A DNA stretch of 64,000 nt from a virus: positions 1-64,000 of the IMG/VR virus record IMGVR_UViG_3300047552_000880; one strand, written 5' to 3'. The position numbers were made by a program, and so were the translations under genes. The notes under the pieces were generated by a model that saw only the letters and a list, made by a program, of their open reading frames with translations, had not been told where the DNA came from and did no database searches. Numbering within the stretch: the stretch's first letter is position 1; each line of letters starts with the position of its first letter. Of this stretch, positions 4,313 to 64,000 are shown piece by piece.

Positions 4313-4756
4313 TTAATTGATTTCCTCAACGACACAGTTTACGACACGCTCGGCATCATCTTCATCGGGGAAGGTTTCAAATCGTGTCGCGTACTCATTG
4401 CAATCCGGGGCGTCGAATACTTTATTAGTATCCTCGAACCGAGATTCTTTGATGGTGTCAATGAAAATAATTGCATCCGCACCAACGATTTCTCTGGTTT
4501 CTTTGGTTGGTGCAACCATGTCAATGATAACAATATCGCGAGCTGAGTATAACGAGAATTCTCGCATTCTGCGTGCTTGTCGTAGGCGACCTGCATATGA
4601 GAAGTCCCAATCATTGTAAAACGAACGCATTTCATCTGCATTCATTTTTCCGATTGTATATGTTGTCATCTGTTTAAACTTGCGAACAAGTTTTTCGGAG
4701 AATGTTGTCTTCCCCGAACCCGGAAGACCCATAATGAGAATGGTATAAGGTTTCAT
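4313..4756 (-). CDS. Adenylylsulfate kinase-like P-loop kinase
   Basis: A 147-residue P-loop protein. The Walker A motif GLPGSGKTT is at about residues 10-18. It then has NDWDFSYAGRLRQARRMREF, a Walker-B-like strand DIVIIDMVAPTKETRE, and FIDTIKESRFEDTNKVFDAP near residue 105. This order matches the compact adenylylsulfate kinase (CysC-like) proteins of marine phages. APS kinase makes PAPS, the donor used by sulfotransferases, two of which lie at 59.2-60.8 kb. True substrate is uncertain, since related phage kinases could phosphorylate nucleotides or nucleic acids. The start at 4756 is favoured by AGGATGCGC; it overlaps the upstream stop (ATGA). Confidence 0.7.
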   Translation of the reverse strand: MKPYTILIMGLPGSGKTTFSEKLVRKFKQMTTYTIGKMNADEMRSFYNDWDFSYAGRLRQARRMREFSLYSARDIVIIDMVAPTKETREIVGADAIIFIDTIKESRFEDTNKVFDAPDCNEYATRFETFPDEDDAERVVNCVVEEIN

Positions 4757-4953
4757 GCGCATCCTGCGTTGGAGTAAAACTTTTTATAAGGAGCGAACTT
4801 TAAACCTTTCACTCCGCCGTTCTGTTTCACCAGACGGTCTATTTCAACAGAACCGATCTGATACAAATCTTTTTTATCATAACCACAGGCTTCGACCAGA
4901 AACCGTGTTTTGATATTAACATCACGAACCAGAAAGTTACCGTAGTTTGTCAT
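4753..4953 (-). CDS. Hypothetical protein
   Basis: A 66-residue basic protein (MTNYGNFLVRDVNIKTRFLV at the start, GLKFAPYKKFYSNAGCA at the end) with ribosome site GAGGCGATT. It is the first gene after promoter/leader repeat copy 2 and overlaps the kinase gene by 4 bp, so the two are coupled. I recognise no domain. Confidence 0.7.
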   Translation of the reverse strand: MTNYGNFLVRDVNIKTRFLVEACGYDKKDLYQIGSVEIDRLVKQNGGVKGLKFAPYKKFYSNAGCA

Positions 4954-47054: not shown

Positions 47055-47278
47055 GTGAAATGATTAAGATAGAGGGTTCGCCTACATTATTGCGTGACCC
47101 TCATTCAAAGGCAGTGTTAAATACTAACATTGGTGAACGCGAAGCAAGGAAACAGCAACGCGACTTCTTTTTGTCTATGCAGGCGCAGAAAAATGAAGTG
47201 GAAAAACTGAAAGAAGAATTCGGTGAAATGAAAGATGCGCTATTCCAGATTTTAAATTTGCTGAAAGATAAGAAATAA
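47051..47278 (+). CDS. Small coiled-coil protein
   Basis: A 75-residue protein. The second half (RKQQRDFFLSMQAQKNEVEK, LKEEFGEMKDALFQILNLLK) is a clear amphipathic coiled coil with a lysine-rich end. Overlaps the giant protein stop (ATGA) and the next start. Probably a fibre-assembly or trimerisation helper, judging only from its position between fibre genes. Confidence 0.7.
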   Translation: MSEMIKIEGSPTLLRDPHSKAVLNTNIGEREARKQQRDFFLSMQAQKNEVEKLKEEFGEMKDALFQILNLLKDKK

Positions 47279-49011: not shown

Positions 49012-50978
49012 TGTTTAGTGCAAATTCTTCGGCAGCTAGTTCCGACAAATTATACGTCGATGACGTATTCAGCACTTACCTTTACACAGGCAATGGGTCA
49101 TCTCTGACGATCAACAACGGAATTGATCTTGCGGGTAAGGGTGGGATGGTCTGGATTAAGAGACGAAATGGCGCTGAAAGCAACGTACTGCTGGATACCG
49201 TTAGAGGGACTAATTCCGTACTTGTCACTGAAGGCTCCAACCCTGCACTATCAGGATACCCGTGGAATGATGTTGTCACTGCGTTCAACACGAACGGGTT
49301 TACTGCTGGTGCCAGCGTCAGCACTATCAATACTTACGCCTCTTGGACATTCCGCAAAGCACCTAAGTTTTTTGATGTGGTGACTTATACGGGTACGGGT
49401 TCATATATAGATGTTAGCCATTCGTTAGGAGTGAAACCGGGGTTGATCGTCGTGAAGCCATTATCACAATCTGGGTCATGGTGCGTATGGGCACGTGCCT
49501 CCGATACCGATTGTGCAACTTCGGGATTTAATCTTAATACCGTTGACGCCGCTACGTACATAAATTCAGCGTTTAACGGATATGCAAATGCGTCCAGCTT
49601 TAATACCCTTGCATTAGGCGCAAACATAGCAAATTGCAGTCTATCCGGCGTCACCTACGTAGCTTACCTATTCGCCCACGACACCAGCGCAGACGGGTTG
49701 ATTCAATGCGGAAGTTTTACTACCGATGCATCAGGCAACGCTTCAGTGACTTCGTTGGGGTGGGAACCTCAGTTCTTGCTGGCTAAATGTGCGTCATCCA
49801 CAGGTGATTGGTTGGTGTTGGATAGCCAGCGTGGATGGAATATGACCGCCAACGATGCTGTATTAAAAGCCAACTTGACAGATGCCGAGTCAACATCCAC
49901 CGAGTACGGTAATCCAACTGCAACTGGTTTTGATTTCAAAGGTGGTTCGGCAAGTCAGACCTACATCTACATGGCAATTCGCAGACCTAACAAGCCGCCG
50001 ACAACGGGAACACAGGTTTTTACGCCCTACGCAGATGCTTACAGCGGGTATGTGACAGGCGATTCATCTTCGTCACACCCTAGTAAGATTGATTCTGTTT
50101 GGTACGCAGCGAGGAATTTCCCTACGATGCCGACAGACAATGGATCAATGAAGGTGTTTTCTGTCACAGACCGTGTTCGTGGGTTTGATGGCACATCTGC
50201 AATTGGCAGCGGGCCTATATTTACGACCCCTACTTTGAATACGTCAGCCACCGCCGCAGAAACCACTACTTCGGGAAATATATTGCAGAGGAAGGATCAG
50301 CCCCCTGCAATGTATTTCGGTATGAACTACGGAAATATACCCCATGTCCGTTATGCTTTCAAACGCGCCCCCGGCTTCTTTGATGTGGTTTGTTATACGG
50401 GAACTGGAAATCCTGGGCTGGTTGTGCCGCATAGTCTATCGGCAATACCGGAATTGATTCTCATAAAAGCAAGGAAATTTGGTGGATCGGGTTGGGAATG
50501 GATAATTCTCCACATGGAAACAGCCCGTTTTTCATTTTTAGATAATGCCGCCATGTCGCTTGGCGCTTCAACCATCGTAACCAGTAGAACAAGTAACTCT
50601 ATTACTTTAGCTTCTGATTCGCGATATAACACCACGACTGAATACGTCGCTTACCTTTTTGCCACACTCCCCGGAATCAGCAAAATAGGCAGCTACACCG
50701 GAAATGGCTCAAGCCAAACCATCAATTGCGGTTTTACTACTGGTGCAAGGTTTGTATTAATCAAGCGCACGGACTCCACTGGTGACTGGTACGTGTGGGA
50801 TACAGTGCGTGGGTTGACTTCATCAACTGATCCACATCTGAGCATGAATTCAACAGCCGCAGAAGTCACTACAGATGATTCTGTTGACCCAGATACCTCT
50901 GGTTTCATTGTGAACCAAGACGCATCGACTAACATCAACGTCAATGCTGGCACATATCTGTACCTCGCAATTGCATAA
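49011..50978 (+). CDS. Tail fibre/receptor-binding protein with repeated beta-rich modules
   Basis: A 655-residue protein containing four related modules that begin FFDVVTYTGTGSYIDVSHSL, FFDVVCYTGTGNPGLVVPHS or SKIGSYTGNGSSQTINCGFT-like, each followed by KPGLIVVK, IPELILIK or RFVLIKR and WYVWDTVRG. I associate this DUF7483-type module with cyanophage and other marine phage fibres. The N-terminal TYLYTGNGSSLTINNGIDLA and MVWIKRRNGAESN form another copy. Probable cell-surface binding module, inferred from repeat type and location. Confidence 0.8.
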   Translation: MFSANSSAASSDKLYVDDVFSTYLYTGNGSSLTINNGIDLAGKGGMVWIKRRNGAESNVLLDTVRGTNSVLVTEGSNPALSGYPWNDVVTAFNTNGFTAGASVSTINTYASWTFRKAPKFFDVVTYTGTGSYIDVSHSLGVKPGLIVVKPLSQSGSWCVWARASDTDCATSGFNLNTVDAATYINSAFNGYANASSFNTLALGANIANCSLSGVTYVAYLFAHDTSADGLIQCGSFTTDASGNASVTSLGWEPQFLLAKCASSTGDWLVLDSQRGWNMTANDAVLKANLTDAESTSTEYGNPTATGFDFKGGSASQTYIYMAIRRPNKPPTTGTQVFTPYADAYSGYVTGDSSSSHPSKIDSVWYAARNFPTMPTDNGSMKVFSVTDRVRGFDGTSAIGSGPIFTTPTLNTSATAAETTTSGNILQRKDQPPAMYFGMNYGNIPHVRYAFKRAPGFFDVVCYTGTGNPGLVVPHSLSAIPELILIKARKFGGSGWEWIILHMETARFSFLDNAAMSLGASTIVTSRTSNSITLASDSRYNTTTEYVAYLFATLPGISKIGSYTGNGSSQTINCGFTTGARFVLIKRTDSTGDWYVWDTVRGLTSSTDPHLSMNSTAAEVTTDDSVDPDTSGFIVNQDASTNINVNAGTYLYLAIA

Positions 50979-50986
50979 GGAACCCT

Positions 50987-51547
50987 ATGCCATACATCAA
51001 TACAAAAACTAAAAAATATCCTCTCTCATTTCTTGACATTCAGCAAGAAAATCCAATGACAAGTTTCGATGCTACATCGATTCCTGCTGCTTATGCGTGG
51101 GTGTTCCCAACACCAACTCCGACATACGATTCTTTGCTGCAATATGTCGTTGAAGGTACTCCCAAGAAAACTACTGATAAGACATACGAACAGACTTGGC
51201 AAGTAGTTGATAAGTATACCACACAAGAAGAAATTGATGCAGCAATCGCAGCAAATGAAAAGTCTAAACTTGATGCAATGGTGCGCGAAGTAACTCAGAT
51301 GGTTCAGAATAAGCTAGATGATTTTGCCAAGTCAAGAAACTATGATTCTATTTTATCGGCAGCAACCTATGCAACATCAGCTATTCCTAAATTTCAACAG
51401 GAAGGTCAGGATGCCGTGAATGTACGCGATACCACATGGGCGTCTCTTTATAAGATTATGACCGATGTTATGACCGGTAAACGTGCTGTACCAACTATTG
51501 CCGATATTATGGCAGAGTTGCCTGTCATGGAATGGACAAATAAATAA
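50987..51547 (+). CDS. Tail-fibre associated protein, assembly-chaperone-like
   Basis: A 186-residue protein between two fibre genes. C-terminal block NVRDTTWASLYKIMTDVMTG then KRAVPTIADIMAELPVMEW resembles small phage proteins that follow fibre genes, in the DUF4376 or fibre-assembly group. The long helix SKLDAMVREVTQMVQNKLDD is central. Function is inferred from location only. The protein at 54300 has a similar position. Confidence 0.6.
   Translation: MPYINTKTKKYPLSFLDIQQENPMTSFDATSIPAAYAWVFPTPTPTYDSLLQYVVEGTPKKTTDKTYEQTWQVVDKYTTQEEIDAAIAANEKSKLDAMVREVTQMVQNKLDDFAKSRNYDSILSAATYATSAIPKFQQEGQDAVNVRDTTWASLYKIMTDVMTGKRAVPTIADIMAELPVMEWTNK
51539..51546 (+). promoter_or_regulatory. Late-type promoter element AATAAATA
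   Basis: AATAAATA at the stop of the preceding gene, about 22 bp before the fibre start at 51569, matches the T4-like late element used elsewhere in this window. Confidence 0.5.
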
Positions 51548-51568: not shown

Positions 51569-53143
51569 ATGGCAATCACACTATCACAATATCTTCAAGT
51601 CGGGGCTAATGGTCCAATTGGTATAACCGCTGGCGGCACGGGCGGCACAACTGCTGCTTCGGCTCGTGCTTCGCTAGGTGCGGCAGCGGCAGGTGCTAAC
51701 ACCGACATTACTTCATTGTCAAGTGGTGTTTGGGCACCTTTGTTGAAAGGGTCTGGGAGCACTTATTCTGCGGCAGGAACAAATTTAGCTACAGCCGCCC
51801 CTATTGTTTCAGATACTGTGGTAGTCACGAGTAGCAGCGCAAGTGCATATTGTTTAGCACTTCCTGCATTTACAGATGATTATAAGAGCCAAAAAATAAC
51901 AGTATATAATCAGACCGCGTTGCCAATAAATGTTTATGCACAGGGAACTGGAACTATAACCTTAACACATACAGGCACTGCCCCTTCATTTTATACGATT
52001 CCTGCGATGGCTTCTGCCGTTTTTGACAGTGGGATTAGTGGAGCGAATGACAATAGATGGATTGTATCGAGTGCACAAGTTACCGACCCATCCGCCTTGA
52101 CAGCCGCTGTTCCTGCCAATAAAGGTGGTACTGGTCAGGTTTCGTATACAGTTGGTGATATTCTCTATGCGTCAGGAACCACAACAATCAGTAAATTGAT
52201 TGCTGCATCAACTGGTTTTGCATTGATTTCAAATGGAGTCGGTGTTGCTCCTAGTTGGGGTAAAATTGATCTAACCACAACTGTTAGTGGTACTTTGCCG
52301 GTTGCGAATGGTGGCACTGGTGTTACCACATCAACTGGTTCTGGTAATAATGTTCTCAGTTCAAGTCCTACCTTAACAACTCCTATTTTATCAGCGGCAA
52401 CGAGTTCAACGGCAGGTGCTATTGGTTATAGTACCGGTGTTCTGACATATGGCGACGGGTCTTCAACCATATCAATTGCTAACTTGACAGGCACTCAGAC
52501 ATTTAGCAACAAAACATTAAGTACAGGATGCTCGTGGGCGGGTGGTTTGATTACTCCTACTTATGGCGGTACAGGTGCTAATTTATCTGGTGCTGCTGGT
52601 GGTGGGGTTGCTTACTTTTTTGGTGGACAAATTTCTGTTACTTCGGCGGGAACAGCGGGTCAGGTTCTTCAATCAAATGGTGCATCGGCTCCTAGTTGGG
52701 TAACAATCTCTGGCGGTGCAACGCTTTCGGATGATACCACAACCAATGCATCTTATTATCCTGTCTTTGCTACCGCAACATCAGGAACAATGTCTACTGC
52801 CAAGGTTGCATCAACGAAACTGAATTTTAACCCTTCTACGGGCACATTGTCAAGTACACAATTCAATGCCACATCGGATTCTGATGTTAAGACCAATGTA
52901 GTTGCCGCAGAAGGTATTGCTATTGTCAATCAATTGAATGGCGTTGAGTTTGACTGGAAAGATGGTACAGGTCATTCGGCAGGTGTAATTGCTCAGGATG
53001 TTGAAACTGTTTTGCCATTCTTGGTTCAGACTGATCCTATTCATGGAAAGAGCGTCAACTATCTTGGAATCATTGCGTATCTTATTCAGTCGGTCAAGGA
53101 ACTAGATGCACGAGTGAAAGAATTGGAGAAATTGAATGGCTAA
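51569..53143 (+). CDS. Tail fibre with C-terminal S74 self-cleaving chaperone
   Basis: A 524-residue fibre. Repeats include NKGGTGQVSYTVGDILYASG, VANGGTGVTTSTGSGNNVLS and TGTQTFSNKTLSTGCSWAGG. The last 95 residues are an S74 peptidase/intramolecular chaperone: SDSDVKTNVVAAEGIAIVNQ (Ser-Lys catalytic pair in SDxxVK), NGVEFDWKDGTGHSAGVIAQ and the coiled-coil end SVKELDARVKELEKLNG. S74 domains drive trimer folding and then cut themselves off. Expected mature fibre ends just before the SDSD motif. Confidence 0.88.
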   Translation: MAITLSQYLQVGANGPIGITAGGTGGTTAASARASLGAAAAGANTDITSLSSGVWAPLLKGSGSTYSAAGTNLATAAPIVSDTVVVTSSSASAYCLALPAFTDDYKSQKITVYNQTALPINVYAQGTGTITLTHTGTAPSFYTIPAMASAVFDSGISGANDNRWIVSSAQVTDPSALTAAVPANKGGTGQVSYTVGDILYASGTTTISKLIAASTGFALISNGVGVAPSWGKIDLTTTVSGTLPVANGGTGVTTSTGSGNNVLSSSPTLTTPILSAATSSTAGAIGYSTGVLTYGDGSSTISIANLTGTQTFSNKTLSTGCSWAGGLITPTYGGTGANLSGAAGGGVAYFFGGQISVTSAGTAGQVLQSNGASAPSWVTISGGATLSDDTTTNASYYPVFATATSGTMSTAKVASTKLNFNPSTGTLSSTQFNATSDSDVKTNVVAAEGIAIVNQLNGVEFDWKDGTGHSAGVIAQDVETVLPFLVQTDPIHGKSVNYLGIIAYLIQSVKELDARVKELEKLNG

Positions 53144-54290
53144 TTTTCTATATAGCGGAACCAGTGGAACGCTAGAGGAAAAATATGTTACGTTCGATGA
53201 AATGGGGTTTGATTCTCCATCTAATTCTGCTGGATCGTTATGGGGTTGGGGAGACAATACAGATGGTCAATTAGGTCTTAACAATGTGACAAATGTAAGT
53301 TCTCCTGTTCAGATCGGTTCATTGACTGACTGGAAACAGGTGTCGATGGGAGGATATCATACAACAGCAATCAAAACAGATGGCACTCTTTGGAGCTGTG
53401 GAAATAATTTATATGGTCAATTAGGACTCAATGACACGACTAAAAGAAGTTCACCCGTTCAAATAGGATCGTTGACTAATTGGAAATTAGTCAGTTGCGG
53501 AAGGTATCATACAACAGCAATTAAAACAGATGGCACGCTCTGGGTTTGGGGATATAACAACCAAGGACAATTAGGGCTTAACAATGTGACAAATATAAGT
53601 TCTCCTGTTCAAGTAGGTACAATGACTGACTGGAAAACATTGACTGGGAATTTGTATAATACGTTTTCTGTTAAGAACGATGGTTCATTGTGGGGTTGGG
53701 GCGGCAATATTTTCGGTCAATTAGGACTTAATGACTATATATATAGAAGTTCACCGGTTCAAATAGGATCGTTGACTAATTGGAAACAAGTATCTATGTC
53801 AAGTGTCTTCTCTGTTGCCGCAATAAAGACAGATGGTTCATTGTGGGGGTGGGGGACAAATACTAACGGTCAAATTGGCTTAGGTAATACAACAGAATAT
53901 TCTTCTCCTGTTCAAGTCGGAACGATGACTAACTGGAAAACATTGTCAACCGGTGGCGTTGCTAACGTTCTTGCTACAAAGACAGATGGTTCATTGTGGG
54001 CATGGGGTTATAACTATGGTGGTCTTGGTCTAGGTGATAGCCTTGCCAGAAGCTCTCCTATTCAAGTCGGATCATTGACTAATTGGAAATCTGTTTCTTG
54101 TAGTACTTCACAAGGTTCTTCCTTTGCTGTTAAAACAGATGGCACTCTCTGGGCTTTTGGGCAAAATGCCTCTAAAAATCTAGGACTCGGCGATAACGTC
54201 AGTAATTCTTCTCCTGTGCAAATCGGAACATCAACTGGATGGAAATCGGTTTCTACTGGATACACTTCTGCCATTGCAATCAAATACTAA
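53136..54290 (+). CDS. RCC1 beta-propeller fibre tip protein, paralogue 1
   Basis: A 384-residue protein of about seven RCC1 repeats of about 50 residues, each with SLWGWGDN or TLWSCGNN-like starts, GQLGLN, SSPVQIGSLTNWK and a TTAIKTDGT strand. Overlaps the S74 fibre gene by 8 bp. RCC1 propellers in phages are likely adhesins at fibre tips. Two more copies lie at 54931 and 58043. The short N-terminal region (FLYSGTSGTLEEKYVTFDEM) is not shared with them and may attach it to the fibre. Confidence 0.88.
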   Translation: MANFLYSGTSGTLEEKYVTFDEMGFDSPSNSAGSLWGWGDNTDGQLGLNNVTNVSSPVQIGSLTDWKQVSMGGYHTTAIKTDGTLWSCGNNLYGQLGLNDTTKRSSPVQIGSLTNWKLVSCGRYHTTAIKTDGTLWVWGYNNQGQLGLNNVTNISSPVQVGTMTDWKTLTGNLYNTFSVKNDGSLWGWGGNIFGQLGLNDYIYRSSPVQIGSLTNWKQVSMSSVFSVAAIKTDGSLWGWGTNTNGQIGLGNTTEYSSPVQVGTMTNWKTLSTGGVANVLATKTDGSLWAWGYNYGGLGLGDSLARSSPIQVGSLTNWKSVSCSTSQGSSFAVKTDGTLWAFGQNASKNLGLGDNVSNSSPVQIGTSTGWKSVSTGYTSAIAIKY

Positions 54291-54299
54291 AGAAAAAAT

Positions 54300-54941
54300 A
54301 TGTACGCACTAATTCATAACAATCAAATTCAAGTTGGTCCTCGTCAATGGTCATATTCTTTCTTCAAGGAATATCTGGTTGAAGAAGGATTGGATTTTTC
54401 GGCGCTAACTGTTCGTGAGCAACCAACAGGTATTCACACATCAACTTATAGAATTGTTCCTGTAACAATTACAAAACACGCGAACGTTGAACCCATTTAC
54501 GAACAACCTTCTGGTCCGTTTTGGACAATCTACGAAGATCGTGTTGAGGGTGAATACAAATCGGCTCCTGTTTCTATTGATGCAGTCAAATCTATTCTGA
54601 AGCAAAAAGCAGCAGAAGAAAGATATAAGAAAGAAACCTCAGGAACCAAGGCAATTATCAGTGTCGGAGAAGTTAATCTATATACTGATCGTGATACTCG
54701 CAAGACTTATCTAGAGGCGTTGCAATTGATTCCTGACGATGTTTCTACATTCAATTTCAAATTCAGTAATGGATTCTTTCCGGTCAATAAAGGCGATCTG
54801 ACTTTGATTGTTTCAACAATTGTTACTCATGTTCAGGCTGCATTTGATTGGGAAGCTGGTATTGTAGCTGCTATTGATTCTGCTACTACTATTGCTGAAT
54901 TGAAGGCAATTGTTATTGAGGAAAAGAAGAATGCCATCTAA
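54300..54941 (+). CDS. Tail-fibre associated protein (DUF4376-like)
   Basis: A 213-residue protein with an N-terminal IHNNQIQVGPRQWSYSFFKE, and a C-terminal domain YLEALQLIPDDVSTFNFKFS with QAAFDWEAGIVAAIDSATTI, which resembles the DUF4376 fibre-associated domain. It sits between two RCC1 propeller genes. Likely fibre assembly or attachment. Confidence 0.65.
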   Translation: MYALIHNNQIQVGPRQWSYSFFKEYLVEEGLDFSALTVREQPTGIHTSTYRIVPVTITKHANVEPIYEQPSGPFWTIYEDRVEGEYKSAPVSIDAVKSILKQKAAEERYKKETSGTKAIISVGEVNLYTDRDTRKTYLEALQLIPDDVSTFNFKFSNGFFPVNKGDLTLIVSTIVTHVQAAFDWEAGIVAAIDSATTIAELKAIVIEEKKNAI

Positions 54942-56133
54942 TTTGACTGGTTTCCGGGAGAATGGGGTTGATATCAGTGACCTTTATTTGAATGGCTCGG
55001 GTATCAATGGAACCGATGATCGTGGTCAGGTTTATGATTATTTGACTGATACTGGTAAGATAAATTATGAAACCGGTTCATTATGGAGTTGGGGTTGGAA
55101 TGCATACGGAAATTTAGGACTAAACGACATTATAGATAGAAGTTCTCCTGTTCAAGTCGGTTCATTAACTAATTGGAAACAAATAACATCTTCATCTTCT
55201 GCTGGTCATTACCTTTCTACCGCGATCAAAACAGACGGAACTCTTTGGAGTTGGGGCAAAAATCAATTTGGCGAATTGGGACTCAACGACACGACTAACC
55301 GAAACTCTCCTGTTCAAGTCGGTTCATTGACTAATTGGAAACAAGTGTCTACCGGGGGGTTTTTTTCTTTTGCGATCAAAACAGACGGAACTCTTTGGAG
55401 TTGGGGTAAGAACGATGTTGGTCAATTAGGACTCAATAACCAAACGAATATAAGCTCTCCTGTTCAAGTTGGTTCATTAACTAATTGGAAATTGGTTTCT
55501 TGTGGTGCATATCATCAATCGTTTATTGACAATTACGGGCAGTTGTGGAGTTGTGGAAATAATTTATACGGTCAATTAGGACTCAATAACCAAACGAATA
55601 TAAGCTCTCCTGTTCAAGTTGGTTCATTAACTAATTGGAAATTGGTTTCTTGTGGAGACAGACACACAACAGCAATCAAAACAGACGGAACTCTTTGGAG
55701 TTGGGGTTGGAATGCGGTTGGTCAATTAGGTCTTAATGACACGGCATATAGAAGTTCACCTGTTCAAGTCGGAACAATGGCTAACTGGAAATCGGTTTTT
55801 TCTGGTGAGTTTATAACATTTGCCACAAAGACAGACGGATCATTGTGGGGATGGGGATATAATCTATACGGTCAATTGGGACTCAATGACACTACCGACA
55901 GAAGCTCTCCTGTTCAAGTTGGTTCTTTAACTAATTGGAAATCTGTCGCTGCGGGGCAATCTGTTGTATATGTAAAAAATGACGGGACACTATGGAGTGC
56001 TGGTAATAATGCGCATGGTCAATTGGGGCTAGGTGATAATTCTCATAGAAGCTCTCCTGTTCAAGTTGGTTCGTTGACTAATTGGAAACTAATTTCAGGC
56101 GGTTCTATGGCGATAATTTCCACGAAAGGTTAA
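54931..56133 (+). CDS. RCC1 beta-propeller fibre tip protein, paralogue 2
   Basis: A 400-residue protein: an N-terminal NLTGFRENGVDISDLYLNGS region, then about seven RCC1 repeats (SLWSWGWNAYGNLGLNDI, TLWSWGKNQFGELGLNDT). Start 54931 is favoured by GAGGAAAAGAAG over the frame start at 54910. Two adjacent blades are identical over 86 bp at the DNA level (55420-55505 and 55570-55655, period 150 bp), which shows very recent duplication or conversion. Confidence 0.88.
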   Translation: MPSNLTGFRENGVDISDLYLNGSGINGTDDRGQVYDYLTDTGKINYETGSLWSWGWNAYGNLGLNDIIDRSSPVQVGSLTNWKQITSSSSAGHYLSTAIKTDGTLWSWGKNQFGELGLNDTTNRNSPVQVGSLTNWKQVSTGGFFSFAIKTDGTLWSWGKNDVGQLGLNNQTNISSPVQVGSLTNWKLVSCGAYHQSFIDNYGQLWSCGNNLYGQLGLNNQTNISSPVQVGSLTNWKLVSCGDRHTTAIKTDGTLWSWGWNAVGQLGLNDTAYRSSPVQVGTMANWKSVFSGEFITFATKTDGSLWGWGYNLYGQLGLNDTTDRSSPVQVGSLTNWKSVAAGQSVVYVKNDGTLWSAGNNAHGQLGLGDNSHRSSPVQVGSLTNWKLISGGSMAIISTKG

Positions 56134-56136
56134 ATA
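56129..56136 (+). promoter_or_regulatory. Late-type promoter element GTTAAATA
   Basis: GTTAAATACC overlaps the stop of the RCC1 gene, 27 bp before the methyltransferase-like start at 56164. The same TAAATACC appears at 59186-59193. Confidence 0.5.
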
Positions 56137-56163
56137 CCATCCCACAAACAAACAATTTTCATT

Positions 56164-56721
56164 ATGAAAAAACTGAATCTAGGATCGGGGTACAAAAGAT
56201 ACCCCGATTTTATTAACATCGATCAAGATCATCATTGTAATCCCGATATTGTAACTGATCTAGAATCCCCGAATTGTCTCTCCATGATACCCGATGATTC
56301 GGTCGAGATAATTCTTGCACATCACATTCTTGAACATATCGGAAGTAATTATATTCCGCTGCTCAAAGAATTATATCGAGTCGCCAAACACAAAGCAATT
56401 ATTGATATACGGGTTCCTCATCCGAATCATGAAATATTCTTGAATGACCCGACTCATAAAAGACCAATTACGGTTGAAGGTCTAAGATTGTTCTCAAAAC
56501 AATATAACCTACAAGAAATTCAAAGAGGCGGAAGTTCATCGACACTCGGAATCATGAATGACATTGATTTTGAGATTGTTCACTTTGATTACATTCATGA
56601 TCCATATTACGACAACATCAAGACAACTGCAACACCCGAGCAATTGGAAAGAATATTTCGTTCAGAAATAAATACGACTCTTGAAATTCACGTTGTTCTA
56701 ACTGTTATTAAAAATGTTTGA
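56164..56721 (+). CDS. SAM-dependent methyltransferase-like protein
   Basis: A 185-residue class I methyltransferase. KLNLGSGYKRYPDFINIDQD (residues 3-22) holds the SAM-binding GxGxxxx and acidic motif II; VTDLESPNCLSMIPDDSVEI and AHHILEHIGS (about 57-66) give motifs III-IV; YRVAKHKAIIDIRVPHPNH fits the later core. Phages of the cyanophage branch carry similar proteins close to tail-fibre genes. Substrate (protein, lipid or glycan) is unknown. Overlaps the next gene by 8 bp. Confidence 0.78.
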   Translation: MKKLNLGSGYKRYPDFINIDQDHHCNPDIVTDLESPNCLSMIPDDSVEIILAHHILEHIGSNYIPLLKELYRVAKHKAIIDIRVPHPNHEIFLNDPTHKRPITVEGLRLFSKQYNLQEIQRGGSSSTLGIMNDIDFEIVHFDYIHDPYYDNIKTTATPEQLERIFRSEINTTLEIHVVLTVIKNV

Positions 56722-58039
56722 TTACCAAAATTCATCTATTATGCAAGCCGCCTTTGCTGCAAAGAGCATTGGTAGATCGATGGACATGTATGCGCCATTG
56801 AAAACGATTGCTCAGTATATCTATGCAATCGATAAGCTAGACGAGATTGCCTATATTCAAAATGAATTGAAGGATTACGAGGGTTCAGTTGCGACTCTCA
56901 ACAAGATGGCATCCATTTCGATGAATAATCAGGAAAAATATTCGATTAGAGCCAATCTTGCGAAGATGTACAATCATCTGAATAAACCAGAAGAATCGCT
57001 TGCTGAGTCACAATTGAATGATATGGTGTCAAATGGTAATGACCTAGACACATGGATGGAAATGGCGTTCAGCTATTATCTGTTAGGTCAATATAATAAG
57101 TCCGAAGAAATGATGCGCAAGATTTCTTGTATTGATAATATCTCGGATGAATTAAGAGGTCGAGTTGAATACAACCTAGGCTCCTATGATATTGAGCATG
57201 GCGAGTTCAAGAAAGGAATTCGTGGCTTCATTGATGTTGGACATAAGATCGGTATTTGGCATCCGAAGGGCATTGATGGTGTTCCTACATGGAAGGGCGA
57301 AACCGATAAACAATTCATTGTCATTCATGGCGAAGGCGGTATCGGTGACGAATTGATCAACTTTCGTTTCACCAATAATATCAAGTCAATGGGATTGACT
57401 CCTATCTGGATTACTAATCACAAAGAACTGGTTCCTGTGTTTGAGCGCCATGACGTGAAGACGATAATGAATCATCAAATTGATAAAGAGAATTCGTATC
57501 AGATCAATGCAATGTACTTACCAATTGTACTAGACCTTGATGCAGATCAGTTATGGAGTGGCGCTTATTTGATTCCTTGTTCCGAACATGTTGCCAAGTG
57601 GCGTGATATATTACCGAGCGGTAGAAAGATCGGTGTCAAGTGGAGTGGCAATCCTGCCTATGAACAGGACCTACATCGAGGGCTGACAACCGATTTTATT
57701 GATGCATTGGAATTCGATGCAGTGAAGGTGAATCTTCAGATCGATGCGTTGAAGGATCATTATTTCTCGGTTCCAATAAATAGTATTGAAGACACATTGG
57801 CAATCTTATCGCTTGTTGATGTTACGGTTACTTCATGCACATCGGTTGCTCACATGGCAGGGGCAATTGGTTCAAAAGTTATTGTATGCCCTCCTATTGC
57901 TTGCTACTATGTATGGCTAGGGCGGAATGATGGATACAGTAACTGGTACGGCAAAAACACAATGGTGGTTCGACAGACGAAACACAATAATCGTGATGAT
58001 GTTTTGGTGAAGGTTAACGAATTACTGAGTAAGGTTTAA
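56714..58039 (+). CDS. TPR protein with a glycosyltransferase-like C-terminus
   Basis: A 441-residue protein. The first half is built of helices with TPR-like spacing (KTIAQYIYAIDKLDEIAYIQ, MEMAFSYYLLGQYNKSEEMM). The second half has HGEGGIGDELINFRFTNNIK, WITNHKELVPVF and GRKIGVKWSGNPAYEQDLHR, resembling the TPR/glycosyltransferase-9-like proteins in cyanophages. It could transfer a sugar to a fibre or surface component. No catalytic residue can be assigned with certainty. Coupled to the methyltransferase and followed by an RCC1 gene. Confidence 0.65.
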   Translation: MFDYQNSSIMQAAFAAKSIGRSMDMYAPLKTIAQYIYAIDKLDEIAYIQNELKDYEGSVATLNKMASISMNNQEKYSIRANLAKMYNHLNKPEESLAESQLNDMVSNGNDLDTWMEMAFSYYLLGQYNKSEEMMRKISCIDNISDELRGRVEYNLGSYDIEHGEFKKGIRGFIDVGHKIGIWHPKGIDGVPTWKGETDKQFIVIHGEGGIGDELINFRFTNNIKSMGLTPIWITNHKELVPVFERHDVKTIMNHQIDKENSYQINAMYLPIVLDLDADQLWSGAYLIPCSEHVAKWRDILPSGRKIGVKWSGNPAYEQDLHRGLTTDFIDALEFDAVKVNLQIDALKDHYFSVPINSIEDTLAILSLVDVTVTSCTSVAHMAGAIGSKVIVCPPIACYYVWLGRNDGYSNWYGKNTMVVRQTKHNNRDDVLVKVNELLSKV

Positions 58040-58042
58040 TAT

Positions 58043-59188
58043 ATGGCAAGCGGGTTTCAGATTAACGGAGTTGATACCGATACAATTTTTCTTAATCGTT
58101 CGGATACGATTTTGGATAGTGTTTCTGTGCCCGGTAAGTTGTGGAGTTGGGGGAAAAATTCATACTACGGTCAATTGGGACTCAATGACACTATCAACAG
58201 AAGCTCACCTGTTCAAGTTGGAGTATTGACTAATTGGAAACAAATCGGTGGCGGTAACGATTCCCTAATTGCAATTAAAACAGACGGTACACTTTGGAAT
58301 TGGGGTTATAATTCACATGGTCAATTAGGACTAGGGGATATTTCTCATAGAAGCTCTCCTGTTCAAGTCGGTACGTTGACTAATTGGAAACTAATTTCAC
58401 AACATGCATCTCAATATAGCAGAATATCAATCAAAACAGATGGAACTCTTTGGAGTTGGGGATATAATAATAACGGCGAGCTAGGGTTAAATGATGTAAA
58501 CCACAGAAGTTCTCCTGTTCAAGTTGGTTCATTGACTAACTGGAAATATATCAGTTCGGTTAATCACGCAATTGCGATTAAAACAGATGGAACTCTTTGG
58601 AGTTGGGGATATAATCCATATGGTCAATTAGGACTAGGGGATATTTCTCATAGAAGCTCTCCTGTTCAAGTCGGTACGTTGACTAATTGGAAATCGGTTT
58701 CTTGCGGTGCTAATCACAACGCAGTGATTAAAACAGATGGAACTCTTTGGAGTTGGGGGCAAAATACATACGGAAGTTTGGGTCTAAACGATACCTCGCC
58801 AAGAAGCTCTCCTGTTCAGGTTGGTTCATTGACTAATTGGAAATCAGTTTCTTGTGGAAACTACCATGTTCTTGCGATTAAAACAGATGGTACATTGTGG
58901 AGTTGGGGTATTAATGGCAACGGGCAATTGGGGCTAAATGACTTAACCTATAGAAGCTCTCCTGTTCAAGTCGGTACGTTGACTAATTGGAAATCGGTTT
59001 CTTGCGGTGATGCACATACTACCGCAATTAAAACAGATGGAACTCTTTGGAGTTGGGGAACGCACAACAATGGTCAATTAGGTCTTAATGGAACGACACA
59101 AGTAAGCTCTCCTGTTCAAGTTGGTTCATTGACTAATTGGAAATCTGTTGCAGGTAGTTTCAGAGCATCTTTAGCAATCTCATCATAA
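58043..59188 (+). CDS. RCC1 beta-propeller fibre tip protein, paralogue 3
   Basis: A 381-residue protein with an N-terminal FQINGVDTDTIFLNRSDTIL, similar to that of paralogue 2, and about seven RCC1 blades. Long DNA identities between blades are seen, for example near 58318-58390 and 58619-58691. A late-type element follows at 59184. The three propellers in one region suggest alternative or mixed receptor-binding tips. Confidence 0.88.
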   Translation: MASGFQINGVDTDTIFLNRSDTILDSVSVPGKLWSWGKNSYYGQLGLNDTINRSSPVQVGVLTNWKQIGGGNDSLIAIKTDGTLWNWGYNSHGQLGLGDISHRSSPVQVGTLTNWKLISQHASQYSRISIKTDGTLWSWGYNNNGELGLNDVNHRSSPVQVGSLTNWKYISSVNHAIAIKTDGTLWSWGYNPYGQLGLGDISHRSSPVQVGTLTNWKSVSCGANHNAVIKTDGTLWSWGQNTYGSLGLNDTSPRSSPVQVGSLTNWKSVSCGNYHVLAIKTDGTLWSWGINGNGQLGLNDLTYRSSPVQVGTLTNWKSVSCGDAHTTAIKTDGTLWSWGTHNNGQLGLNGTTQVSSPVQVGSLTNWKSVAGSFRASLAISS

Positions 59189-59191
59189 ATA
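59184..59191 (+). promoter_or_regulatory. Late-type promoter element CATAAATA
   Basis: CATAAATACC at the stop of the RCC1 gene, 28 bp before the first sulfotransferase start at 59219. Closest match in the window to the T4 late promoter TATAAATA. Confidence 0.55.
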
Positions 59192-59218
59192 CCAATCCAG
59201 CAATCTTTATTATTCAAA

Positions 59219-60010
59219 GTGAAACAATTTTTCTTTCTATCTGGTCTACCAAGATCGGGTTCAACTGTTCTTGCTAGTATCCTTAATCAGCATCCCGAGA
59301 TTCACGTAACGCCAACTTCTCCGTTACTTGATTTACTTTACCTCAATGAACAGAACTACCGATCAAATCCATCGGTAATCGCGAATCCAACTCATACCTC
59401 ATATGAGTCTATTTCAAAATCAATCATTGAAGGTACATGGAAGCACGTTAATAAACCAATCATCGTTGATAAACACAGAGCATGGGCAAGAAATATTCCT
59501 ACCATTCGACGTGTGTTTGAAACCGATCCAAAGGTTATTCTGACAGTTCGCTCGATTCCCGAGATTGTTGCCAGTTTCTTTACTCTCCTAAGAAAAACAA
59601 AACAATCGCCACATTACATTGATCAAATTCTATTACAAAGAAATGCACCGATCAATGATATGAACCGCGCATATATTCTGTGGCATGATTTTATTGCAAA
59701 TACCGTTGAATCGGCGTTGATCGGGTTCAAAACAAATCGAGCAAATATTCATCTGGTTGATTACAATGACTTGATACAATGTCCTGAAGAAGAACTGAAA
59801 AAGATATATCAGTTCCTTGCGCTTCCATCATATCAACATGATCTAAACAATATCGTTAATGATACCAATGACGATGATCTCGCGGCATGGGGAATCGAGA
59901 ATCTTCATCAAATACGCCCGGTATTGAAAAGAACATCATCAGATGCAAAAGAAATACTCGGTGATGTTTATCATGTCGTCAATTCATTGAATGCCGAGTT
60001 CTGGAGATAA
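59219..60010 (+). CDS. Sulfotransferase family protein 1
   Basis: A 263-residue protein. The PAPS-binding loop is SGLPRSGSTVLASILNQHPE (residues 8-27), and the 3'-phosphate site is ILTVRSIPEIVASF (about 111-124). The DDDLAAWGIENLHQIRPVLK end is shared with the next gene. Begins with GTG; no ATG lies before the binding loop and no strong ribosome site is seen. Sulfotransferases move sulfate from PAPS to a hydroxyl or amine of a sugar, lipid or protein. The acceptor is unknown. Confidence 0.82.
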   Translation: MKQFFFLSGLPRSGSTVLASILNQHPEIHVTPTSPLLDLLYLNEQNYRSNPSVIANPTHTSYESISKSIIEGTWKHVNKPIIVDKHRAWARNIPTIRRVFETDPKVILTVRSIPEIVASFFTLLRKTKQSPHYIDQILLQRNAPINDMNRAYILWHDFIANTVESALIGFKTNRANIHLVDYNDLIQCPEEELKKIYQFLALPSYQHDLNNIVNDTNDDDLAAWGIENLHQIRPVLKRTSSDAKEILGDVYHVVNSLNAEFWR

Positions 60011-60012
60011 TT

Positions 60013-60795
60013 ATGTTTTATATGATCGGTCTACCAAGATCGGGTTCAACTGTTCTTGCTAGTATCCTTAATCAACATCCCGAGATTCATGTAACTCCAA
60101 CTTCTCCTTTGCTGGATCAATTGGTTGCGAATCAGGATATCTATCATTCATTACAGGCAGTTCGCGCAAATCCTGTTCCGGGTCAACTGGAAAATATCAC
60201 CCATTCCATTATCAATGGTATGTACAGTCATATCAAGAAGCCTATTATCATTGACAAGAATCGGGGATGGGGAAAGAATGTCAGGGATGCAACCACACTT
60301 CTTGGAAAAGAAATGAAAATGATTGCGACCACTCGTTCACTTCCTGCGGTCATGGAATCTTGGCTCCGCATTATTAAAAAGAACCCCAATAGTTTCGTTC
60401 ACCGTGAACTAAAAGGTCTTGTTACCGATGCTCGAATCCTTTCCTATATGTGGGAACATCAGGTCAAAGATTGTGTTGAAAGTCTTCATACCGCTATTCA
60501 ATACAATAAGAAAAATGTATTGATCGTTGATTATGATGCTCTGGTAGATAACCCGGTCGAACAATTAAATCGAGTCGTTGAGTTTACGGGCGCATCTGAT
60601 TTCACATTTGATCTGAATAACATTAAGAGCGAAACGAAGGATGATGACCTTGCTGCATGGGGTATTGATGGCATGCATACTGTTCAGCCATCTCTGAAGC
60701 GTTTAAACGCGATTACAGGCGTTTTAACACAGGAGCAGTATGTTCGGTTCAAATCGCTTGAAAAATCGTTTGTAGGCGTTTTTAATGCGTTCTAG
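60013..60795 (+). CDS. Sulfotransferase family protein 2
   Basis: A 260-residue paralogue of the preceding gene, starting 3 bp after it with ribosome site GGAGATAATT. It has MIGLPRSGSTVLASILNQHP (residues 4-23) and IATTRSLPAVMESW near 110. The first 90 bases of the shared domain are almost identical in DNA to the first copy (47 bp exact, 60028-60074), whereas the middle differs, so the 5' end seems homogenised. Both act in the same late operon and may use different acceptors. Confidence 0.82.
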   Translation: MFYMIGLPRSGSTVLASILNQHPEIHVTPTSPLLDQLVANQDIYHSLQAVRANPVPGQLENITHSIINGMYSHIKKPIIIDKNRGWGKNVRDATTLLGKEMKMIATTRSLPAVMESWLRIIKKNPNSFVHRELKGLVTDARILSYMWEHQVKDCVESLHTAIQYNKKNVLIVDYDALVDNPVEQLNRVVEFTGASDFTFDLNNIKSETKDDDLAAWGIDGMHTVQPSLKRLNAITGVLTQEQYVRFKSLEKSFVGVFNAF

Positions 60796-60976
60796 CCACA
60801 TTCTAACATTGCTCAAGACAATTACTTGGCGAATAACAGGAAGTGGAGCGACTTTTGCAATATCTTACATCTATACAGGAAGTACTTCATTTGCCTCTGG
60901 TATTGCACTGACTCAGATGGTTGTCAATAGCATCCTTTACTATGTACATGAAAGAATTTGGAATTATGTTGAATAG
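60785..60976 (+). CDS. DUF2061 small membrane protein
   Basis: A 63-residue protein with the DUF2061 pattern: LLKTITWRITGSGATFAISY, TGSTSFASGIALTQMVVNSI and the closing YYVHERIWNYVE. Two predicted membrane segments. In bacteria DUF2061 is known next to or fused with sulfate-activation genes such as APS kinase, which fits the neighbouring sulfotransferases. Overlaps both neighbours by 11 bp. The AGGCG before the ATG is a modest ribosome site. Confidence 0.8.
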   Translation: MRSSHILTLLKTITWRITGSGATFAISYIYTGSTSFASGIALTQMVVNSILYYVHERIWNYVE

Positions 60977-61577
60977 AATTTATATTGTTGATGATTTTTA
61001 TCCTAATCCTGATGGCGTGATGGAGAATGTCTTTAATGACGAACGAGAAGATAACTCGGGCGGCAATTACGCGGGTGTCATGAATTCAACCAATTTCTTT
61101 ACTCCTGAACATCAAAGAGTGTTTCAGCAATTGGTCGGGCATCCTGTTTCGGCAGGAACATCTTTAACCGGAAAGTTTCGTTTCTCGTGTGTCAATGATA
61201 CTTATAAGCAGAATATTCATTTTGATGCCGGTGGTGAGAATCTTGCATGGGCAGGTGTTGTCTATATGCAGAAACATTATGAAGAAGGAATCGAAGGAAC
61301 TTCATTTTATAAACACAAGGAAACTGGATTAGAAGAAATACCTAGGTCGATTGAAGGTTGTTCTAAATATGGATGGAATTCAATTGCTGATCTTAAGAAG
61401 TTTCTGGATACCGATGGTGTCGATGATTCGAAATGGATCAAGACACTAACAGTTCCTTATAAGTACAATCGATTGGTATTATTTCGCCCTTGGTTGTTTC
61501 ATGCTCCGGGAAAGGCTTTCGGCAGTTCAATTGAAACATCACGAATCGTTCAAACAATTTTTCTTAATCAGGAATAA
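60966..61577 (+). CDS. DUF6445/2OG-Fe(II) oxygenase-like protein
   Basis: A 203-residue protein beginning MLNRIYIVDDFYPNPDGVME, which resembles the DUF6445 family related to 2-oxoglutarate/iron oxygenases. The possible iron-binding residues are IHFDAGG near residue 83 (HxD) and LFHAPG near 183. If active, it would hydroxylate a protein or small molecule. Start 60966 is set by TTTGGAATT; frames from 60921 or 60948 are possible. Phage homologues lie near fibre genes too. Confidence 0.65.
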   Translation: MLNRIYIVDDFYPNPDGVMENVFNDEREDNSGGNYAGVMNSTNFFTPEHQRVFQQLVGHPVSAGTSLTGKFRFSCVNDTYKQNIHFDAGGENLAWAGVVYMQKHYEEGIEGTSFYKHKETGLEEIPRSIEGCSKYGWNSIADLKKFLDTDGVDDSKWIKTLTVPYKYNRLVLFRPWLFHAPGKAFGSSIETSRIVQTIFLNQE

Positions 61578-61880: not shown

Positions 61881-64000
61881 ATGCAGAATTTGTTCCATGA
61901 CACAATGGCAGCAGCCGCAATGAATGTATTGCGCGAGAATCCTAATATCTCCAAGGTTGATAAAGGTCTGCTGCACGAAATCACGGTTCAAATAGCAAAG
62001 GCAACTGCAAAGGGAAACGAACCAGTTGCTGCCATGATCGATAATCTGGTCAACGAACTCAAAAAGAGCGAACAGATAAAAGATGATGCGTTTGAGAGAC
62101 TTCTGAAATCAGAGAGAGAAAATACCAGACGTATTATTGATGCCCTCAATAAATGGAACGCAAAACAAGGTTATGGAACCGACAAGGAATCTATCAAAGA
62201 TTCTATGCGCGAAGTCATTGAGAAGATCGAGAACTCCGAAGACAAGAAAGAACTTGCTAAGGAGTTCAAGGAATTCCATCGAGAGTTTATTGCAATCGTT
62301 GATACATTAGAGGCAGAGGCTCTAAAGAGTTCACATCATCTTAGTACAATAGAGCAACATACCAAAGAATTAAAATCAATTGACAAGGTTCTTCATACAA
62401 TTGATGAAGGCGAACATCAGCTTGTTAATCAAGAGCATTCCGATTCAACTGTCAAAGAATCCTATACTTCCGAGACAGAAAAAACTTCTGATTCTGAGAC
62501 AGAAAAAATTTCTGTTGAAAGTTCGACCGATACGCAAAAAACTAATAAAGTCGAAGCAAAGCAGTCTTCTGATACCAATGTACTAAAAGAAACTGTTGAT
62601 CAGAGTTCAAAGACAGACGCGAAATCTGAAAATAAAACAAATACCACTGGACAGAATACACCTGAGACAAAGAAAGCAGTAACTGCCAAAGAAGCATTTG
62701 CCTCTGGTGTTAAACGTCATGCAGAAGATTATAACCCATATTATAGTCAGGGTATGACACATGACGTAAAAAGAATGGTAGGCGCGGGCGTTGCTAACGT
62801 TCTTATTACCAAATTAGCGCAGACAGGTAAGTTTGATAAGAACGGAAATGAAATTAAGCCGAAGGAACCTGAAGTCGATTCCGATGGTAATCCGATTATA
62901 AAGAAACCTTCATTCAAGGAAATGTTTGTTCAACAGGCGCAGATGCATGCTGAGAACTATAATCCTTATTTTAGTCGAGGTATCGTCGGTGATGTGATGC
63001 ACATCGGTGGTATGGCTCTGCGTGGCGCTGTCATTCATAAAATATCTGAACTGTTCCATAAAAAGACTGTCGAGAAGAATACAGAACAGAAAGACTCGCC
63101 TGAATCTTCGATTGAGCCGAAACAGCAATCTGATGTATCCGAGTTAAAAACAGCAACAGAAACCGTTTCAAAGAACACGGCAAATAATGTTGTGAATTCT
63201 TCTATTGAGAAGAAAGAATCTTCTACTGATCAAATGGTCAATATTTTGACCAAAAAATCTGATGAAATAACAACTGCACCAAGTGTTGTTATGGGCAAAC
63301 CTTTAACCAAGGCAGCTATCAGAAAACAGGAAAAAGAAAAGAATCGGGTCAACTTCACTAAAGTCAAAAAGGCAAGAGAAGCCGCGATTGCTGATCCTAC
63401 ACCTGTTATCAATACGCCAGTTGAATCAAAGAAGATCGAACAGAAGATAACAGATTCTACAACAGAAAAGCTGTCTGATGTAGCAACTAAATCAAATAAC
63501 GTTGAATCAAAGAATACAACAAGTTTACTGGAAAAGGTAAGCGTAAAGGCATCTGAATCAAATAATGTTTCTAACGTTGAATCAAAGAATACTAATTCAT
63601 CACAAGTAAAAACATTATATGATGTAAATAAAACTTCTACTGATTCTCTGTCTGATGTAGCAACTAAATCAAATAACGTTGAATCAAAGAATACAAATAA
63701 AACTTCTACTGATTCTCTGTCTGATGTAGCAACTAAATCAAATAACGTTGAATCAAAGAATACAACAAGTTTACTTTCAAAACTCAGCCAAAATACATCT
63801 AATGTAGCCAGTAATGTTTTTGGTGCGCTGAAAGAAAAATACGATCAACTAACTTCTCGTAAAGAAAATAAAACTTCTACCAACGAATCTCTAAGAGATA
63901 CTGTTATCAATTTGCGCGGAAAGACTATTGTCAATTTCATGGGTAAATTGAAACAAGATCGCAAACAGTTGGAAGCAGTAGGAGAAGTAACAAAGAAAGA
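61881..64000 (+). CDS. Long repetitive Ser/Thr/Lys-rich protein, 3' end outside the window
   Basis: The frame starts at ATG 61881, is open for 706 codons and runs off the right edge. N-terminal 160 residues are helical (AAMNVLRENPNISKVDKGLL). Residues about 278 and 355 start two copies of a motif, HAEDYNPYYSQGMTHDV and HAENYNPYFSRGIVGDV. Between and after these lies low-complexity charged sequence. From residue about 530 there are near-identical 23-residue repeats (TSTDSLSDVATKSNNVESKN). Unknown; probably a virion or tail-associated protein because it follows the fibre operon with no gap. Confidence 0.75.
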   Translation, partial: MQNLFHDTMAAAAMNVLRENPNISKVDKGLLHEITVQIAKATAKGNEPVAAMIDNLVNELKKSEQIKDDAFERLLKSERENTRRIIDALNKWNAKQGYGTDKESIKDSMREVIEKIENSEDKKELAKEFKEFHREFIAIVDTLEAEALKSSHHLSTIEQHTKELKSIDKVLHTIDEGEHQLVNQEHSDSTVKESYTSETEKTSDSETEKISVESSTDTQKTNKVEAKQSSDTNVLKETVDQSSKTDAKSENKTNTTGQNTPETKKAVTAKEAFASGVKRHAEDYNPYYSQGMTHDVKRMVGAGVANVLITKLAQTGKFDKNGNEIKPKEPEVDSDGNPIIKKPSFKEMFVQQAQMHAENYNPYFSRGIVGDVMHIGGMALRGAVIHKISELFHKKTVEKNTEQKDSPESSIEPKQQSDVSELKTATETVSKNTANNVVNSSIEKKESSTDQMVNILTKKSDEITTAPSVVMGKPLTKAAIRKQEKEKNRVNFTKVKKAREAAIADPTPVINTPVESKKIEQKITDSTTEKLSDVATKSNNVESKNTTSLLEKVSVKASESNNVSNVESKNTNSSQVKTLYDVNKTSTDSLSDVATKSNNVESKNTNKTSTDSLSDVATKSNNVESKNTTSLLSKLSQNTSNVASNVFGALKEKYDQLTSRKENKTSTNESLRDTVINLRGKTIVNFMGKLKQDRKQLEAVGEVTKK
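63463..63776 (+). repeat. 69-bp in-frame tandem repeat inside the long ORF
   Basis: Two adjacent 69-bp units (63626-63694 and 63695-63763) are identical, each 23 codons. Part of the unit also occurs once at about 63471-63528, with the same following bases ACAAGTTTACT seen again at 63764-63774. It adds repeats to the protein and would allow length change by slippage or recombination. Confidence 0.8.

Follow-up and report, generated by a model that had tools for sequence, protein, structure and literature searches.

A late phage gene block in which RCC1 propeller genes alternate with sulfotransferases and other modifying enzymes, and its possible role in fibre decoration

INTRODUCTION

In Caulobacter the flagellin O-glycosyltransferase FlmG is a cytoplasmic enzyme with an N-terminal TPR part, which binds flagellin, and a C-terminal GT-B domain (PMC7591256). 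In phages, sulfotransferases have been counted among the auxiliary metabolic genes whose function is unclear (PMC10580990), and a possible DNA-organising role has been discussed for RCC1 proteins of one phage (PMC7247149). Genes of both kinds occur together in the Synechococcus cyanophage S-SRM01 (Serangoonvirus), where gp334-gp352, with gp335, gp337 and gp344 as the RCC1 proteins, run in the order S74 fibre, RCC1, DUF4376, RCC1, TPR-glycosyltransferase and 2OG oxygenase and, further on, RCC1 and sulfotransferase. The main text of the S-SRM01 genome paper mentions neither the sulfotransferase nor the RCC1 genes (PMC8557907). Our literature search, which covered few subscription papers, returned no paper joining RCC1 fibres with phage sulfotransferases, which is weak evidence of novelty.

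Here we describe a viral gene block that follows the S-SRM01 order. The DUF4376, TPR-glycosyltransferase and sulfotransferase proteins of the two phages are 27-42% identical, and the DUF4376 homologue (28%) occupies the same place. Unlike our block, S-SRM01 has more glycosyltransferases, a nucleotide-sugar epimerase and a single sulfotransferase. An earlier statement that similar neighbourhoods occur in cyanophages is therefore correct.

RESULTS

The window, by which we mean the whole stretch of 64,000 nucleotides analysed, carries a plus-strand block headed by an S74-chaperone tail fibre gene (51569..53143; PF13884, E 2.5e-11, with PHROG tail fibre matches). Three of the genes behind it, RCC1a (53136..54290), RCC1b (54931..56133) and RCC1c (58043..59188), encode seven-bladed propellers: each shows seven PF00415 stretches, as expected for seven RCC1 repeats of ~50 residues, and the blades in the window are 47-54 residues long. 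Judging from their position among fibre and baseplate genes, the RCC1 proteins presumably form receptor-binding tips of the virion. Between RCC1a and RCC1b sits the gene of a DUF4376 tail-fibre protein or putative fibre chaperone (54300..54941; PF14301, E 4e-11; phrog_10508, tail fibre). A SAM-methyltransferase (56164..56721; phrog_6636 methyltransferase, E 9e-11, with sub-threshold Pfam matches only) and a TPR-glycosyltransferase (56714..58039), whose genes overlap, stand between RCC1b and RCC1c. Behind RCC1c follow the sulfotransferases ST1 (59219..60010) and ST2 (60013..60795), a small predicted membrane protein of DUF2061 (60785..60976; PF09834, E 8e-20) and a DUF6445 protein (60966..61577; PF20043, E 1.3e-11), for which an ATG at 60966 is a better start than a TTG at 60921. 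Open reading frames and family matches agree with the preliminary description, which had placed a methyltransferase, a TPR/glycosyltransferase-like gene, two sulfotransferases and DUF6445 between and after three RCC1 genes in the late direction. It had missed the DUF2061 and DUF4376 genes and the distant kinase gene described below. A megablast search with the structural block gave no match among phage records.

Ahead of late genes on the plus strand, at a distance of 20-45 nt, the element WTAAATA occurs 11 times, against 0.7 expected; in 1000 shuffles the mean was 1.0 and the maximum 5. One copy, at 51540, precedes the S74 fibre gene. Two late elements had been reported inside the block and both were recovered, as TTAAATA at 56130..56136 and ATAAATA at 59185..59191 on the plus strand; they precede the methyltransferase and ST1, not propeller genes. 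The exact sequence TAAATACC was rejected as the late element, its frequency being no higher than chance, whereas the enrichment of its shorter core, WTAAATA, between -45 and -20 reaches significance.

The 441-residue TPR-glycosyltransferase is predicted (AlphaFold2, pLDDT 93.7) to consist of a TPR domain (residues ~1-183) and a GT9-like GT-B domain (~194-441). VIA-align comparisons of the latter gave Z scores of 17.2, 16.9, 15.9 and 15.8, with 17.2 for heptosyltransferase II and 15.8 for TibC. The predicted fold is closest to WaaC, WaaF and TibC (Z 15.8-17.2 over ~220-231 residues at 9-15% identity), which would place the domain in GT9 by fold; by sequence, the Pfam GT9 profile gave no match at E 0.01. 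The phage TPR domain takes the place of the N-terminal part of TibC. With the whole architecture Foldseek returned OGT and SPINDLY, and the predicted succession of TPR and GT-B domains is of the FlmG/OGT type. The likeness to FlmG is one of architecture, and FlmG transfers pseudaminic acid, whereas the phage domain is GT9-like. Searching solved structures by sequence returned just TPR proteins and the TPR parts of OGT and SPINDLY; the glycosyltransferase domain surfaced by fold alone. A methyltransferase homologue lies immediately upstream of the TPR-glycosyltransferase in 15 of 35 distinct loci, and in phage BUCT-ZZ01 the two form a single fused protein.

ST1 (PF13469, E 1.2e-20, 75 bits) and ST2 (E 5e-14, 53 bits) both exceed the Sulfotransfer_3 cut-off of 27 bits, possess the 5' and 3' PAPS loops and are 41% identical to each other. 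ST1 has the PAPS motif PRSGST, for which the family motif is GLPR-G-T, and its R111 and S119 are invariant in a seven-sequence alignment. The best profile matches in the PDB are the protein-tyrosine sulfotransferases TPST1/2 (E 2.5e-10), with which the phage proteins share PAPS-binding loops. The catalytic Glu of the TPSTs, which we take to be the second Glu of GEETR in TPST2, aligns with Thr in the phage family, where the stretch reads TPTSP. Protein tyrosine is therefore a doubtful substrate, and we dropped membership of the TPST family for lack of this residue.

On the minus strand, ~50 kb from the block, lies the gene of an APS-kinase-like P-loop kinase (4313..4762) that matches the APS kinase family (PF01583, 35.7 bits against a cut-off of 21.1) and has adenylyl-sulfate kinases as its best PDB profile matches (2yvu, E 4.7e-13). 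The protein is 38-51% identical to kinases inside the cassettes of relatives, where such kinases adjoin or are fused to sulfation-linked genes. Judged by its sequence it could be a PAPS supplier. Unlike APS kinase and PAPS synthetase it is short and diverged, with similarity also to KTI12 and Ser-tRNA kinases; lying on the opposite strand in a different region, it might phosphorylate another compound.

For DUF6445 a profile search gave nothing useful, but a fold search succeeded. The predicted structure (AlphaFold2, pLDDT 91) is a double-stranded beta-helix like that of OGFOD1, PHD2 and viral collagen prolyl 4-hydroxylase, with Z of about 11-13 over ~150-160 residues (13.4 to human OGFOD1) at ~10-15% identity. 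Alignment places the HxD...H motif at H85-x-D87 and H179, and the 2OG-binding Arg (R193) is invariant, consistent with a prolyl-hydroxylase-like 2OG-Fe(II) oxygenase. Some paralogues miss the HxD. PHROG 1644 labels this family as a minor coat protein.

A scan with the single TPR-glycosyltransferase found the same virus only, and we therefore adopted profile scans. In viral contigs at least one of the enzyme families was present in 55 of 63 distinct RCC1 loci, mainly downstream, and in none of seven control loci around PhoH, tallies that include related phages and rest on mechanically called ORFs. As this control comprises just seven other loci, the asymmetry between the 3' and 5' sides is the stronger one: RCC1 is immediately upstream of a sulfotransferase in 13 of 34 distinct loci and immediately downstream in one (Fisher p 5e-4), and enzymes occupy position +2 of RCC1 in 22 of 55 loci but position -2 in 2 of 50 (p 6e-6). 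In the domain scan 15 distinct proteins were sulfotransferase-glycosyltransferase fusions, 12 of them encoded immediately after RCC1. Further fusions join GT2 to a methyltransferase (S-SRM01), an APS-kinase-like domain to DUF2061 (relatives L121 and L141) and an oxygenase to an APS-kinase-like domain. In RCC1-free loci, the neighbours of these enzymes are fibres of a Kelch-like or collagen-like kind.

DISCUSSION

The same gene set recurs beside propellers in many phages, and the parts that grip the host are therefore probably decorated. With moderate confidence we interpret the block as a late-expressed cassette dedicated to modifying the phage's own propeller fibres by building a sulfated, methylated glycan on them. 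We infer the substrate, the order of steps and the chemistry as follows. While in the cytoplasm, a fibre protein (the RCC1 propeller) would be bound by the TPR domain and receive a sugar from the GT9-like domain, in parallel with FlmG on flagellin and TibC on its adhesin. The methyltransferase and both sulfotransferases might then methylate and sulfate the glycan, or side chains close to it; the APS-kinase-like protein, together with the linked DUF2061 protein, would provide the PAPS or raise its supply. Finally, DUF6445 may hydroxylate fibre or glycan, possibly making an acceptor hydroxyl. The outcome would be charged, decorated fibre tips and an altered adsorption specificity. The extra genes of AG-345-E08, for a PfkB-type kinase and cytidylyltransferase-like sugar-nucleotide enzymes, also speak for such a pathway.

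The conserved linkage and the fusions place phage sulfotransferases and RCC1 genes in one testable picture, that of self-decorated fibre tips. If it is true, knowing the fibre sequence would not suffice to predict the adsorption specificity of many phages from fresh water and the sea, and recombinant fibres produced without the enzymes may be inactive. Were propellers sulfated post-translationally, a glycan code would join the protein sequence in setting the host range. More tentatively, there might be a widespread class of phages with an almost self-sufficient pathway (APS kinase, sulfotransferase, TPR/GT9, methyltransferase and 2OG oxygenase) that places sulfated, methylated glycoprotein adhesins on virions.

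Some observations count against a fibre-modifying cassette: gene linkage names no substrate, DUF2061 is a predicted membrane protein, the sulfotransferases are without the TPST catalytic Glu and the APS-kinase-like gene lies far off on the opposite strand.

The enzymes might instead add a sugar, sulfate or methyl group to a polysaccharide of the host surface, be it LPS, capsule or S-layer glycan, masking the receptor of these very propellers and blocking superinfection or the re-adsorption of progeny to debris. The preliminary description had named fibre and host surface alike as targets; its coupling of the enzymes to propeller and fibre genes is strongly borne out by the neighbourhoods in distant phages, the 3'-side bias and the fusions, and the choice of target leans towards the fibre. 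WaaC and WaaF, the best fold matches, are LPS heptosyltransferases of GT9; sugar-nucleotide and epimerase genes occur in some relatives, and DUF2061 is a predicted membrane protein. Receptor-altering enzymes would likewise be co-inherited with a receptor-binding gene. However, late co-expression with the fibres comes late for surface remodelling by a lytic phage, the glycosyltransferase bears a protein-binding TPR module, and the same enzymes accompany Kelch-like or collagen-like fibres where these replace RCC1. Moreover, no flippase, polymerase, undecaprenyl-phosphate transferase or other lipid-carrier gene was noticed in the inspected cassettes. For these reasons we favour the fibre and regard a host-surface target as unlikely.

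It is rather improbable that the enzymes are hitch-hiking cargo, gathered as auxiliary metabolic genes at the fibre loci of T4-like phages, which are recombination hot spots, and unrelated to the fibre in function. Gene order does vary among close relatives (L096 versus the window), sulfotransferases lie away from RCC1 genes in S-SKS1 and S-SCSM1, and ST1 and ST2 share a recently homogenised segment. However, distant phages show the same families again and again, strongly biased to the 3' side of RCC1, and fusions between the enzymes are encoded immediately after it. Random cargo would not keep sulfotransferase, glycosyltransferase, methyltransferase and APS kinase together. The enzymes might also act elsewhere in the virion or the cell, on baseplate, capsid, DNA or a small molecule, and simply have the late block in common with the fibres. 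This would agree with the minor coat label of DUF6445 and with the occurrence of GT-B folds in further modifying enzymes, but is very improbable given that the enzymes keep company with propeller genes rather than with genes for the capsid or for DNA metabolism, and that the predicted fold of DUF6445 is that of a prolyl-hydroxylase-type enzyme.

RESULTS

The window represents 64 kb out of a 125.9-kb virus record, and its end is identical across the overlap to a 178-kb assembly from a different sample. Judged by a run of T4-type baseplate PHROGs, the virus is a T4-like myovirus. Using ORFs and family profiles we found all genes named in the preliminary description at their positions. RCC1a (53136-54290), RCC1b (54931-56133) and RCC1c (58043-59188) each encode a complete seven-bladed propeller, RCC1b and RCC1c being 57-59% identical to RCC1a, and a DUF4376 tail-fibre protein gene sits between RCC1a and RCC1b. 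The genes for the methyltransferase (MT, 56164-56721) and for a protein with TPR and glycosyltransferase domains (TPR-GT, 56714-58039) overlap by 8 nt. They are accompanied by two sulfotransferase genes, ST1 (59219-60010) and ST2 (60013-60795), and the DUF6445 gene (60966-61577); a gene for a 63-aa DUF2061 membrane protein (60785-60976), which had not been listed before, is located 3' of ST2 and overlaps it. Blades appear to have been exchanged or duplicated within and among the three RCC1 genes (53136-59188), with near-identical stretches in, for example, b3/b4 and a2/b4. Upstream of the block (42543-50978) lie very large fibre-region genes, encoding 1503 aa (no Pfam match) and 655 aa (DUF7483), and at 63471-63819 a stretch encoding about DVATKSNNVESKNT is repeated in tandem within a long structural gene.

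The T4-like late core WTAAATA was observed 11 times 20-45 nt upstream of late genes, compared to 0.7 expected. Such sites precede the S74 fibre gene (51569-53143), MT and ST1. From their positions, the block seems to be divided into three late units: S74 fibre-RCC1a-DUF4376-RCC1b, MT-TPR-GT-RCC1c and ST1-ST2-DUF2061-DUF6445. The ST1 and ST2 proteins are 41% identical; at the 5' ends of their genes (59243-59332 and 60028-60117) DNA identity reaches 93% over 90 nt, and identical residues share codons in 20/23 cases inside this stretch compared to 25/78 elsewhere. Together this suggests recent gene conversion between the two 5' ends.

Structure prediction of TPR-GT (pLDDT 93.7) gave a TPR array as N-terminal half and a GT-B domain as C-terminal half. 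In this predicted model the GT-B domain most resembles those of the GT9 heptosyltransferases (Z 17.2 to heptosyltransferase II, 15.9 to WaaC and 15.8 to TibC), and Foldseek matched the whole architecture to OGT and SPINDLY. DUF6445 (pLDDT 91) has a predicted fold resembling 2OG prolyl hydroxylases, namely OGFOD1 (Z 13.4), PHD2 and P4H. ST1 and ST2 retain their PAPS loops, and the closest solved relatives are protein-tyrosine sulfotransferases. Because the catalytic Glu of those enzymes is not conserved in the phage proteins, a sugar seems at least as likely an acceptor as tyrosine.

Near sulfotransferases of relatives a small kinase is repeatedly found, fused to DUF2061 in L121 and L141 and to an oxygenase-like domain in L032 (loci on other contigs). 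The L141 kinase matches Pfam APS kinase with 43.1 bits (cut-off 21.1), and adenylyl-sulfate kinases rank first among the PDB profile matches of the small kinase. Far from the cassette, the window carries a homologue (4313-4762, minus strand) that is 38-51% identical to the kinases inside relatives' cassettes. It scores above the Pfam APS-kinase cut-off. With this putative enzyme the phage probably produces PAPS itself or raises the supply.

When viral contigs were scanned with profiles for TPR-GT and sulfotransferase, each profile matched more than 570 relatives, of which the best 80 were retained. Loci in these related phages were counted with mechanical ORFs and profiles built in this analysis; the counts thus describe best matches, no random sample, and the PhoH control is small. 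At least one enzyme family was present in 55 of 63 distinct RCC1 loci. Enzymes occupied the first and second positions 3' of RCC1 in 25/61 and 22/55 loci, and the corresponding 5' positions in 7/60 and 2/50. RCC1 lay directly upstream of a sulfotransferase in 13 of 34 loci and directly downstream in one (near-duplicates removed; p 5e-4). The freshwater cyanophage S-SRM01 matches the window in gene order (S74 fibre-RCC1-DUF4376-RCC1-TPR-GT-2OG-...-RCC1-ST), and variants occur in the single-cell marine virus AG-345-E08 and the lake phage BUCT-ZZ01. A near relative (L096/L184) has the same genes in a different order: RCC1-DUF4376-RCC1-RCC1-TPR-GT-DUF6445-MT-ST-ST-APS-kinase-like gene, then DUF2061.

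Enzyme fusions were established as well. Single chains of sulfotransferase and GT domain were found in 46 ORFs (15 distinct; sulfotransferase part checked by Pfam), 12 of the 15 immediately after an RCC1 gene. In BUCT-ZZ01 TPR-GT is fused to a methyltransferase, and in S-SRM01 a methyltransferase to a GT2 domain. Given these fusions and the MT/TPR-GT gene overlap, it is likely that glycosylation, methylation and sulfation act on a single product.

DISCUSSION

It had been proposed that the enzymes either decorate the fibres or alter the host surface. Some loci are free of RCC1 but contain the same enzymes; the flanking genes there encode Kelch-like repeat proteins (L158, L163, L164 and AG-345-L05; Kelch profile matches weak) or a collagen-like fibre (L106). 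Hence the enzymes track the fibre role and not one particular fold, which fits fibre modification and fits modification of the host surface less well. The analysis demonstrates what the enzymes are or how they fold, the late elements, the conserved linkage and the fusions; we infer that the fibre is the substrate of the enzymes. TPR-GT would place a glycan core on the fibre, methylation and sulfation would come afterwards, DUF6445 would hydroxylate, and the modification might affect adsorption. The best functional precedent is FlmG, a cytoplasmic TPR-GT that acts on a surface appendage (PMC7591256).

In marine relatives (L011:25193-27024, L010:6037-7840) the cassettes contain sugar-nucleotide genes (PfkB-type kinase, cytidylyltransferase-like, cupin), suggestive of activated heptose. 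A scan of bacterial genomes yielded eight MAG contigs (L271-L278), six with RCC1 directly beside TPR-GT. A methyltransferase is sometimes present too, and several of the contigs are labelled as Bdellovibrio relatives; they may represent a prophage, phage sequence that was binned wrongly, or a counterpart of the cassette in bacteria. Inteins were noted in other loci (L003:16959-18737, L004:8956-11748), where an intein-like insert splits the prohead protease frame and a ribonucleotide reductase carries a LAGLIDADG/intein domain.
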